Source: a virus. From it: a DNA stretch of 36,880 bases. The notes under the pieces were generated by a model. That model searched no databases. It had not been told where the DNA came from and saw only the letters and a program-made list of their open reading frames with translations. Made by a program: the position numbers and the translations under genes. The stretch lies in the IMG/VR virus record IMGVR_UViG_3300042923_000479, positions 1 through 36,880 of that record. The stretch is one strand, 5' to 3'. Positions 34,054 through 36,867 of this stretch are shown here, one piece after another. Within the stretch, counting starts at the first letter, position 1. Every line of letters starts with the position of its first letter.

Positions 34054-34205
34054 GCCAAACCCCCGTGGCCCATGACCATTACCTCGTCCGACCACCCAGG
34101 GGTTGATCGCACATACCGGATGTAACGGGTCTCCGCCCAGTCGCGGCGCCACCGCGGTTTCTGCATGCGCCGCCGATACCACGCTGGTTTTGTAGACTTA
34201 GTCAT
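34050..34205 (-). CDS. 51-residue basic protein, first of the reverse cluster
   Basis: ATG 34205 with AAGGAGT six bases upstream. The N-terminus is strongly basic (WYRRRMQKPRWRRDW). It opens the reverse cluster that runs to 33141; ATGA-type overlaps link all four genes. It could bind nucleic acid, but no family is recognised. Confidence 0.6.
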   Translation of the reverse strand: MTKSTKPAWYRRRMQKPRWRRDWAETRYIRYVRSTPGWSDEVMVMGHGGLA

Positions 34206-34232
34206 GTCGGACTCCTTGCTAGTTCGGCCATC

Positions 34233-34268
34233 GCCCCGGCCTGTTACCGCAGGTGCGGGGCTCTTTCT
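34233..34268 (+). terminator. Hairpin with T-rich tail on forward strand
   Basis: GCCCCG (34233-34238) pairs with CGGGGC (34256-34261), and CCTG pairs with CAGG inside, followed by TCTTTCTCT. It would stop forward transcripts before attP; on the reverse strand it lies in the leader of the 34205 gene. Confidence 0.5.
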
Positions 34269-34338
34269 CTATCTTAACGGTTCGGGTTGCCATGCGGTAG
34301 TGAGACTACGGACGAGCCTTAGTATCGGCCGGTGGCGG

Positions 34339-34354
34339 TTTAGTGGCTGTTTTC
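34339..34354 (+). repeat. Arm-type repeat, copy 1
   Basis: TTTAGTGGCTGTTTTC matches the copy at 34570-34585 in 15 of 16 bases. It lies about 110 bases to the left of the tRNA-like core, the distance expected of an integrase arm site. Confidence 0.6.
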
Positions 34355-34462
34355 AGGGCTTACCTGTGACTCCCTGTGGCTACTCGCCCGCAAAATCACG
34401 GGAAACGGTAGACGGAAGTAGGCCCAGGTAACCACGACCGCATAGCAGACTGCTCAGCATTC

Positions 34463-34489
34463 GGGGGTTCGAATCCCTCACTCGCCACA
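34463..34489 (+). other. Probable attP core: tRNA 3'-end identity
   Basis: GGGGG, loop TTCGAAT, CCCTC make a T-arm (34463-34479, one G-U), followed by acceptor strand ACTCGCC, A, CA. No matching 5' acceptor GGCGAGT lies upstream, so this is not a whole tRNA but the 3' part of one. Phage integrases often use such sites, rebuilding the host tRNA gene on integration. The full core may extend left into the variable/anticodon region. Confidence 0.72.
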
Positions 34490-34515
34490 AGGCCCACAAT
34501 CCCGGAAAATCAACG

Positions 34516-34553
34516 AAACCGCCCCGCCAGTCTTCGGACAGGCGGGGCGGTTT
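34516..34553. terminator. Strong bidirectional terminator
   Basis: AAACCGCCCCGCC (34516-34528) is perfectly complementary to GGCGGGGCGGTTT (34541-34553), with A-rich and T-rich flanks on both sides. It ends the integrase operon on the reverse strand and any forward transcript. Confidence 0.85.
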
Positions 34554-34559
34554 TCTTCG

Positions 34560-34585
34560 TTAGTGGCTATTTAGTGGCGGTTTTC
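34560..34585 (+). repeat. Arm-type repeats, copies 2 and 3
   Basis: TTAGTGGCTAT (34560-34570) and TTTAGTGGCGGTTTTC (34570-34585) are tandem copies of the motif at 34339. The right-hand copy overlaps the stop of the small reverse gene. Together with copy 1 they flank the attP core. Confidence 0.6.
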
Positions 34586-34843
34586 GTTCGCAGGGGCGAT
34601 TGCGTCAGCCTCGTCTCGAAGCCATGCGGCAAGTTCCTCCGCGTCGGCCATGCGGCGCGTCACCCCATCGGCCGCAGCCCTTAGAGCCGCAGCATCCCGG
34701 TGTGCCGCGGCTCGTGCTCGTCTAAGCCGTCTGTAGTCCGCTGTCGCCGATCGGTTTGCCTCCGTGCATCGCGGGCATTTGCACCCTAGGTTCCTATAGC
34801 CGTTCAATGTTCCATGCCGGGGATCGGAGGCGGCGGGGAGCAT
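34571..34843 (-). CDS. Small protein with HG-GY-CxCxxC motif
   Basis: 90 residues from ATG 34843. The motif RHGTLNGYRNLGCKCPRCTE (10-29) recalls the N-terminal cluster of the multi-HTH protein at 6505 (HGATGTCYQKHRCRCTDC). The rest is a long Arg/Ala helix. A zinc-dependent DNA-binding role is plausible. Its location at the attP end of the integrase operon could suit an accessory factor for recombination, but that is inference. Confidence 0.65.
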   Translation of the reverse strand: MLPAASDPRHGTLNGYRNLGCKCPRCTEANRSATADYRRLRRARAAAHRDAAALRAAADGVTRRMADAEELAAWLRDEADAIAPANENRH

Positions 34844-34847
34844 AGCG

Positions 34848-35090
34848 TCACCGGACTCCGGAGCTGGGTGACGACTCTTCGCCGAAGACTGCATCAAGCC
34901 CTGCGGACACGTGCGAATCGGCCCAGCGCGTGATGGCCGCGAGGACAGGGATGGCATCAGTATCAGCGTCGAACCCATGTGCCGCCAGGATGTGCGCCAA
35001 GTCTCGCGTGCGCTCATGCCGCGGACGCTCATGCTCGAAGATCCGGAACGCCTCATCGCGGCTCAGCGGCGGGCAAGTAGACTCGTTCAT
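34848..35090 (-). CDS. Small helical protein after integrase
   Basis: 80 residues from ATG 35090 with AAGGAGT seven bases upstream, overlapping the integrase stop. Acidic/His-rich helices (RDEAFRIFEHERPRHERTRD, DAIPVLAAITRWADSH). No HTH is evident, so it is not an obvious excisionase. Function unknown. Confidence 0.6.
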   Translation of the reverse strand: MNESTCPPLSRDEAFRIFEHERPRHERTRDLAHILAAHGFDADTDAIPVLAAITRWADSHVSAGLDAVFGEESSPSSGVR

Positions 35091-36322
35091 GTCGACTCCT
35101 TCATAGTCGGCTCTTGCCCTCGGCCCGTCGCAATCGGGTCGGGGGCTTCTACGTTCACATTAACAGCCACCCCCGACGTGGGGGACAGCAACTTCTGCAC
35201 GGTCGACGCGGACGCCGGCCCGCGCGACGCCTGCTCCACGTAATGCCGCAGATTCCCGAACCCCGTATGCCCGAGCTGGTCACGCGCAGCCTCAACACCC
35301 AGATCCTCAGCAAGCAACGTCGCCACAGCCTTACGGAAAGCTCCAGGAGTCACCGCCGCGTACCCACTCCCCTCCAGTGCGGCCCGCCAATCCCTGCGGA
35401 GGTTGTCAGGCCACCGTGGCGTCCCCGCGGCAGAGGGAAACACCAGATCCGAGTACGCGCCCGCCGCGCGCGCCACAAGCATCGGCACAACGAACACGGG
35501 CAGCTCGAGCTCACGCCGGGACTTGTCCGTCTTCAGCGTTTCCTTCACGACCAGTTTCCCGTCGATGCTCCTCGCGACGGTTCCGTTGATGGTGACCGTG
35601 GGAGGCATCGAGTCGAAGTTGAAGTCGGACCACCGCAACGCCAGAACCTCCGACGTGCGGGCACCCGTCGCCGCGTACATGTCCATCGTGTCCCGCAGGC
35701 TCCCGTTCCGCGGACGCTGATACTTGTCCACCCCGGCATCCCACACTTCCAACAGTCCACGAATCGCAGCAATGTCGTCCGCACGCAACGCCTTCACCTT
35801 CGGCTTCGTCCGCGTAACCGCCTTAGTCTCCGGAACCGGATTCGAGTCCACCGCCCCCGCATAAACCGCATGGGACATCATGTGCTTCAACACAATCCGA
35901 ACCGTCCGCGCCTGCCCCGGAGTCTTCTTCGCCACAGCCTGGATATAACGGTTCAGCTTCGCCGGGGTAGCCTCCCCCACCCGCACACCCGACAAACCCC
36001 GCAGAACCGCCTTCAACGCCTCCTGATAGGTGAGTTTCGTCCCGTCCGCCAGGTTCGTGTCAGCCAACATCTCCACCTTCCACGCGTCAGCCAACTGCTG
36101 AAGGGTGGAGTCCCGGGTGATGAGTTCACCGGCCGGCGTCAGACGATCCCGCAGAGCCTCCTTGAGCGCGTTGACCGCGAGGGCAGACGTCCGCCCCGTC
36201 CGCATCATCCGCCGCGTCTCACCATCACTGTCGCGGTACCAAGCGCTGGCCGCAGGCTTCCCGTTGTGAGTGAACTTACGGATCGTGCCGTAAGTCTCCA
36301 GGGGCAGCGGTGGCCTAGCCAT
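35087..36322 (-). CDS. int: Tyrosine-type phage integrase with substituted box II His
   Basis: 411 residues. An N-terminal arm-binding region (1-65), a SAM-like core-binding domain (about 70-165), and a catalytic domain. Catalytic residues are R222 (ATGARTSEVLALRW), K264 or K267 (TLKTDKSRR), R330 (PGAFRKAVAT), H352 (QLGHTG) and the nucleophile Y361 (RHYVEQ). Box II is normally HxxR; here residue 327 is Gly. It would recombine attP at 34463 with a host tRNA gene. It follows the HNH gene by six bases. Confidence 0.93.
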   Translation of the reverse strand: MARPPLPLETYGTIRKFTHNGKPAASAWYRDSDGETRRMMRTGRTSALAVNALKEALRDRLTPAGELITRDSTLQQLADAWKVEMLADTNLADGTKLTYQEALKAVLRGLSGVRVGEATPAKLNRYIQAVAKKTPGQARTVRIVLKHMMSHAVYAGAVDSNPVPETKAVTRTKPKVKALRADDIAAIRGLLEVWDAGVDKYQRPRNGSLRDTMDMYAATGARTSEVLALRWSDFNFDSMPPTVTINGTVARSIDGKLVVKETLKTDKSRRELELPVFVVPMLVARAAGAYSDLVFPSAAGTPRWPDNLRRDWRAALEGSGYAAVTPGAFRKAVATLLAEDLGVEAARDQLGHTGFGNLRHYVEQASRGPASASTVQKLLSPTSGVAVNVNVEAPDPIATGRGQEPTMKEST

Positions 36323-36328
36323 GACGTC

Positions 36329-36649
36329 CTACCCTCTACTCCAGAACGGGGCGGACAGATAGCGAGCCACGCGTCCGTCCGCTTCCCTAACGCCCGACTC
36401 CACCAAACGTAGGTGCGTGTTGCACTTGGAGCACAGCAGCCCGCGCACGTACTGCCATCCCAGCGAGTGGTCGTGGTCAACCTCAAGCCGACGCTCCGAC
36501 GTGCCACACATCTCGCACCGCTTGCCCGAGCGTTCCTCGAGCGCGTCATAGTCCTCGCAAGACATGCGGTAGACGCGGTGCTGACAGATACGCGGGTTAC
36601 CTGCCGCGGTGAGTTGCCCAGCGACCGCTTGAGAGTGCGGCACCGACAT
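36329..36649 (-). CDS. Endonuclease VII-like HNH nuclease
   Basis: 106 residues. ATG 36649 overlaps the upstream stop and is preferred over ATG 36667. The T4 endonuclease VII-type signature is present: C45-x2-C48 (CEMCG), D58-H59-D60-H61 (EVDHDHSLG), R69-GLLC73, C76-N77. Such enzymes cut branched DNA or act as free-standing homing-type nucleases. Its place directly before the integrase gene is unusual and may link it to integration or to gene mobility. Confidence 0.85.
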   Translation of the reverse strand: MSVPHSQAVAGQLTAAGNPRICQHRVYRMSCEDYDALEERSGKRCEMCGTSERRLEVDHDHSLGWQYVRGLLCSKCNTHLRLVESGVREADGRVARYLSAPFWSRG

Positions 36650-36867
36650 CACTCGCCTCGCTTCCATCGGCTGATTGTATTCGTCGACAGTCCCGTGAAG
36701 GCGGCAAGCTCGCGCACGGACGCCCCATGCTGCGCAGCAGTGACCACCGACTCCCGGATCTCCATCAACGCCTCCTCGCGCCGCTCGAGCGCTGTGCGAA
36801 TGCGCGCCTGATCGGCGTCATTGATGAGTCCTCGCTTCTGGGGCACACCCCCGACTGTAGCGCTCAT
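36649..36867 (-). CDS. Small HTH protein at start of integrase operon
   Basis: 72 residues from ATG 36867. A long basic helix (ARIRTALERREEALMEIRES) precedes an HTH (GASVRELAAFTGLSTNTISR). It resembles the 31324-31518 protein. Being first in the operon it may regulate integrase expression or act as a small repressor. The promoter is cut off at the window edge. Confidence 0.72.
   Translation of the reverse strand: MSATVGGVPQKRGLINDADQARIRTALERREEALMEIRESVVTAAQHGASVRELAAFTGLSTNTISRWKRGE

Follow-up and report, generated by a model that had tools for sequence, protein, structure and literature searches.

A probable tRNA-Tyr attP site with paired arm-type repeats in a metagenomic phage of the Microbacteriaceae

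The DNA analysed here (the window), a virus record of 36,880 bases to which no host is attached, is well supported as the genome of a temperate phage whose hosts belong to the Microbacteriaceae, a family of actinobacteria. Its only DNA similarity to published phages is to a 78-bp piece of Microbacterium phage Footloose, matching positions 34202-34279 (84%), which is the sole stretch near the attP with such similarity. This stretch contains an inverted repeat around CCCCGGCCTG...CAGGTGCGGGG, which is shared by the loci L164 and L208 and is likely to be a terminator. The region under study contains the following features:

34332-34342, plus strand: candidate arm-type site P1, GTGGCGGTTTA, a conserved tandem 11-bp repeat
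34343-34353, plus strand: candidate arm-type site P2, GTGGCTGTTTT, a conserved tandem 11-bp repeat
34359-34434, no strand assigned: left spacer with the conserved blocks cTTACCTGTGACTCCCTGTGGCTAC and GTAG.....AGTAGGCCCAGGTAAC (block conservation 0.81-0.87)
34446-34487, plus strand: probable attP core, the 3' part of tRNA-Tyr(GTA), matched exactly at 79 genome loci
34516-34553, plus strand: predicted intrinsic terminator hairpin with a short T run, an inverted repeat that folds in all relatives
34563-34573, plus strand: candidate arm-type site P3, GTGGCTATTTA, a tandem 11-bp repeat holding the stop of the neighbouring minus-strand gene
34574-34584, plus strand: candidate arm-type site P4, GTGGCGGTTTT, a conserved tandem 11-bp repeat
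34571-35056, minus strand: cargo ORF between the right arm and int, matching phrog_4234 (E=2.6e-4; weak HNH/zinc-ribbon)
34848-35090, minus strand: small cargo ORF of 80 aa, whose start codon overlaps the int stop
35087-36322, minus strand: int, a lambda-type tyrosine integrase of 411 aa (PHROG integrase 1.5e-40, Pfam Phage_integrase 4.6e-11)

A phmmer search against solved structures recovered lambda Int as the sole match of the integrase, and full-length lambda Int was also the best fold match of its predicted model, whose mean pLDDT of 69 is moderate. A beta-beta-beta-alpha N-terminal domain is predicted with moderate confidence at residues 12-60, and the model suggests a protein with N-terminal arm-binding, core-binding and catalytic domains. 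Residues R222, K264, R330, H352 and Y361 do not vary across the aligned integrase set. At the first His of the HxxR motif, all aligned relatives of at least 74% identity have a Gly, and several more distant integrases a His; the clade reads GAFR here, with the normally conserved catalytic His replaced by Gly at residue 327, yet a relative has clearly integrated. No published phage integrase was found to be at least 60% identical to that of the window. Directly upstream of int lies an endonuclease VII-like gene (36329-36667, minus strand; Pfam 1.9e-13). The slot between the right arm and int (34585-35087) carries variable cargo, the distance from the core to the int stop ranging from 73 to 1397 bp in relatives; it is empty in L016, L017, L022 and the G075 lysogen described below and is occupied by different small genes in others. 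In the window, the true start of the larger cargo ORF (34571-35056) may lie downstream of the listed one, and the 80-aa ORF (34848-35090) had no family match in PHROG and Pfam profile searches.

The 42-nt core sits 600 bp past the 3' end of the int gene and comprises the 3' strand of the anticodon stem, the variable arm, the T arm, the 3' strand of the acceptor stem and the discriminator A of tRNA-Tyr(GTA). In a collection of bacterial genomes it gave 80 exact matches in 79 loci, the named genomes belonging to Microbacteriaceae genera such as Microbacterium, Agromyces, Leifsonia and Herbiconiux. The great majority of these matches (77/80) are preceded by the 5' half of tRNA-Tyr(GTA) and thus represent complete tRNA-Tyr genes, while the remaining three resemble junctions of other elements. 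A previous sequence-only reading had placed a tRNA 3' end at 34463-34489; such an end is present, but the host-identical stretch is 34446-34487, 42 rather than 27 nt in length. The same reading had predicted a host tRNA ending in ACTCGCC-A as attB, and the search of host genomes which it proposed as a check indeed led to tRNA-Tyr(GTA) of Microbacteriaceae, 77 complete genes of which have the identical 42 nt. Consistent with its claim that the 5' half is missing, ARAGORN detected no whole tRNA gene in the window, and an Rfam search of the attP region gave only a sub-threshold match to part of the T arm. Immediately to the left of the core, at the place of the tRNA anticodon loop, the phage bears ACCGCATAG, the loop position reading CTGCATA or CCGCATA in attP as against CTGTAAA in attB. 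Furthermore, all four variable-arm alleles observed in attP sites equal alleles of host tRNA-Tyr. Phage genomes can carry relic tRNA fragments, and the core could likewise be a dead fragment left by a past integration, in an attP that is no longer active; this is very improbable in light of the exact 42-nt identity to the host, the conservation of the arms and hairpin, and the intact adjacent int. Equally improbable is a system of integration-dependent immunity, common among actinophages with tyrosine integrases (PMC5559632), in which attP lies inside a gene that is truncated upon integration, because no listed ORF of at least 60 aa crosses the core and the gene overlapping the right arm ends outside it.

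The repeats that had been noticed on the two sides of the core proved to be exact matches at the positions given for them (TTTAGTGGCTGTTTTC at 34339-34354 and TTTAGTGGCGGTTTTC at 34570-34585), 0.18 occurrences of the repeat consensus with up to 3 mismatches being expected by chance per window. Their copy number required partial correction: the pair on the right stood, but the left side, which had been credited with a single copy, has a second one too, giving a tandem pair on each side. All four repeats are in direct orientation. The tandem-pair pattern has exactly two occurrences in the genome, at 34332-34353 and 34563-34584, and likewise exactly two in every tested record spanning a complete attP. 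The right arm does overlap the end of a coding gene, as had been observed, with the TAA stop of the minus-strand cargo ORF occupying 34571-34573 inside the arm. We also considered the arm sites as the source of a common C-terminal tail in every neighbouring gene and rejected this, since the reading frame varies among relatives.

Scans of viral contigs yielded 23 loci with the integrase (74-98% identity) and 28 with the core. Relatives with integrases 74-97% identical to that of the window show the same layout, the same core and near-fixed spacing. The left pair starts 133 nt before the core marker GGGTTCGAA in relatives spanning both sides, the one other value (in L012) being an artefact of a left side shorter than 300 nt at that locus, and the right pair starts 66-77 nt past ACTCGCC, i.e. 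within an 11 bp range. When 21 distinct attP sequences are compared pairwise, mean identity reaches 0.97 (left arm) and 0.95 (right arm), falling to 0.79 for the left spacer and to 0.56 and 0.33 for the left and right outer flanks respectively; scored in 23-nt windows, the arms are the most conserved DNA apart from the core. In the divergent L022 the spacer letters have changed in both arms with GTGGC...TTAGTGGC being kept. No GTGGC arm pairs were found near integrases of 43-47% identity in other genomes, and we therefore apply the motif only to the clade of at least 72% identity. These repeats might instead be operators or other control sites that flank the core by chance, a notion to which the retention of the left pair alone by relatives that carry other integrases lends some weight. 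We nevertheless consider this unlikely: the pairs occur only around the core and at a near-fixed distance on both its sides in all complete attP records tested, they vary together within one attP, as seen in the L022 spacer letters, and their layout equals that of published arm sites (PMC3203893). As in lambda-type systems, arm-type repeats occupy conserved positions on both sides of the core, and P1-P4 would be bound by Int.

A search of 398 Microbacteriaceae genomes with the integrase found no lysogen of the exact phage of the window, and an attR pattern search of 366 Microbacterium genomes gave no match. In a single genome of the 398 (G075) an integrase matches at 72% identity, its matched stretch containing one TAA, and the core is present there twice. 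At one copy (L149) ARAGORN recognizes a complete tRNA-Tyr, after which come the hairpin, the right arm pair and int. The second copy (L146) is preceded by the left arm pair and GCATACCAGACGG and gives way to host DNA with the host terminator. L149 and L146 have the structures expected of attL and attR, in a relative whose integrase is 72% identical, and the arm repeats are divided between them. The earlier proposal of a tyrosine-integrase attP with a core and arm sites is thereby upheld, both by these junctions at tRNA-Tyr and by the conservation of the arms in sequence and spacing. They also bear on tRNA-dependent lysogeny, in which a tRNA encoded by the phage compensates for the host tRNA broken by integration, as in mycobacteriophage Fionnbharth. 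Actinophages that combine a tyrosine integrase with paired arm sites include cases of such lysogeny (PMC10865867). However, the Fionnbharth-type system combines a core of ~10 bp with a phage tRNA gene (PMC10865867), as opposed to a core of 42 bp in a window without a tRNA by ARAGORN, and the related lysogen rebuilds tRNA-Tyr; we therefore hold this alternative to be extremely unlikely. The window displays a host-identical core and an adjacent int, and the 72%-identical relative a rebuilt tRNA, as befits a tRNA-directed attP. Accordingly, the region is almost certainly the attP of a temperate Microbacteriaceae phage that integrates at tRNA-Tyr(GTA) and rebuilds the tRNA at attL. The tRNA identity, the lysogen junctions of the relative, the conservation and spacing of the arms and the hairpin are all shown by comparison of sequences.

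In G075 the anticodon-loop letters are those of the host (TGTAAAT) at attL and those of the phage (GCATACC) at attR, which places strand exchange to the right of the anticodon loop. Exchange thus falls outside the 7-nt anticodon loop used by Class I systems, and the site does not fit the anticodon-loop class typified by L5. The G075 junctions bracket the exchange between the 3' strand of the anticodon stem and ~2 nt beyond the discriminator base, an interval within which the T loop lies. The identity of the whole variable arm and the agreement of the attP alleles with those of the host appear to favour the left end of the core. For the L037 attR, the same tRNA allele also occurs among its nearest host relatives, so that it affords no finer mapping. 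Other elements also occupy the tRNA-Tyr gene (L077:6703, L083:5260, L111:3164 and L222), their repeated core including the anticodon loop (TGTAAAT) and their exchange position differing from that of the window attP; in Agromyces subbeticus two core copies ~16 kb apart mark a tRNA-Tyr element with the anticodon loop inside its core.

The strong inverted repeat between the core and the right arms folds in every relative, with energies of -27 to -39 kcal/mol, and its pairing is retained through compensatory changes in L021, L022 and the G075 lysogen, whose stems have a very different sequence. In the attL of G075 this hairpin lies directly 3' of the rebuilt tRNA, which is most simply read as the phage supplying a tRNA terminator of its own. 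The hairpin would then end the tRNA-Tyr transcript in the lysogen in place of the host tRNA terminator. In the left spacer (34359-34434) the blocks TTACCTG..CCTG..GCTAC and GTAG...AGTAGGCCCAGGTAAC stand in opposite orientation. The conserved spacer blocks are possibly sites for Xis or a host factor.

Based on these observations we propose that the N-terminal domain of Int would bind the P1-P2 and P3-P4 pairs of 11-bp arm sites, with its core-binding and catalytic domains binding the 42-bp core. Int would align attP with the host tRNA-Tyr gene and swap strands at a point within these 42 bp, presumably towards the left end. The 5' half of the host tRNA would be joined to the 3' half borne by the phage, rebuilding tRNA-Tyr at attL, and the phage-borne hairpin would terminate the tRNA transcript just ahead of the right arms.

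This architecture is already described for other actinophages, such as CrimD, in whose attP the 11-bp repeats likewise form two pairs, with a stem-loop lying between P3 and the core (PMC3203893). As in CrimD and other members of Subcluster K1, the two arm-repeat pairs of the window flank a tRNA-type core with a tyrosine integrase adjacent, and a stem-loop terminator separates the core from P3 (PMC3203893). In contrast to K1, in which the core derives from tmRNA, P3-P4 are inverted relative to P1-P2 and attP lies 5' of int (PMC3203893), the window has a tRNA-Tyr core, four direct repeats and an attP 3' of int with cargo in between. Putative arm-site pairs in direct orientation are also ascribed to mycobacteriophages L5 and Giles in PMC3203893, which cites the original papers. 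L5 has additional arm sites and a crossover in the anticodon loop (PMC1762012), unlike the exchange to the right of that loop seen here. In Ms6, of class II (T-loop), strand exchange also occurs 3' of the anticodon loop, though its 26-bp core stops short of the variable region (PMC1762012), whereas that of the window starts in the anticodon stem and reaches the discriminator base. With lambda, the Int of which is the closest solved structure, the window shares a two-site-binding integrase, in the window a predicted one, and arm-type sites on both sides of the core. The attB of lambda is not a tRNA gene, and the sequence and spacing of its arms differ from those of the window.

A scan with the left arm alone recovered phages that match the left half of the window attP up to CAGACTGCT, beyond which the end of another integrase gene follows (L150:5503-6825, L152:3041-3190, L153, L155, L156, L164, L206, L207 and L208). 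These records have the left arm pair only, and the joint to the new integrase gene falls within the core or, in L206, within the arm, most joints being clustered ~11-20 nt into the core. Upstream of the gene for one integrase type, of 397 aa, lies a 3' end resembling that of tRNA-His, and integrases 58-60% identical to this type adjoin tRNA-His in two genomes. A second type, of 383 aa (L164), also has a tRNA 3' end upstream, and in two Microbacteriaceae genomes that tRNA is tRNA-Arg(CCG). The targets of these relatives are tRNA-His and, probably, tRNA-Arg. On a plain reading, this looks like repeated replacement of the integration module, leaving a half-attP scar. Selection, short homology or the action of the old integrase are possible causes of the clustering of joints in the core. 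A tentative and rather doubtful idea is that whole integration modules are repeatedly exchanged at the attP core, the right half of attP and int giving way to integrases directed to tRNA-His or tRNA-Arg, and that some of these switches might be catalysed by the original integrase at the point where it exchanges strands, so leaving the scar.

For a metagenomic phage that otherwise lacks a host, these results fix both a host family, the Microbacteriaceae, and an exact target gene. The 22-nt tRNA-Tyr core is present in one copy in each of three non-lysogen genomes checked, and the phage is a candidate source of a site-specific integration system for bacteria in which genetic tools are scarce. Its relatives, with their matched host and phage tRNA-Tyr alleles and their half-attP scars, offer good natural data on how integration targets change.
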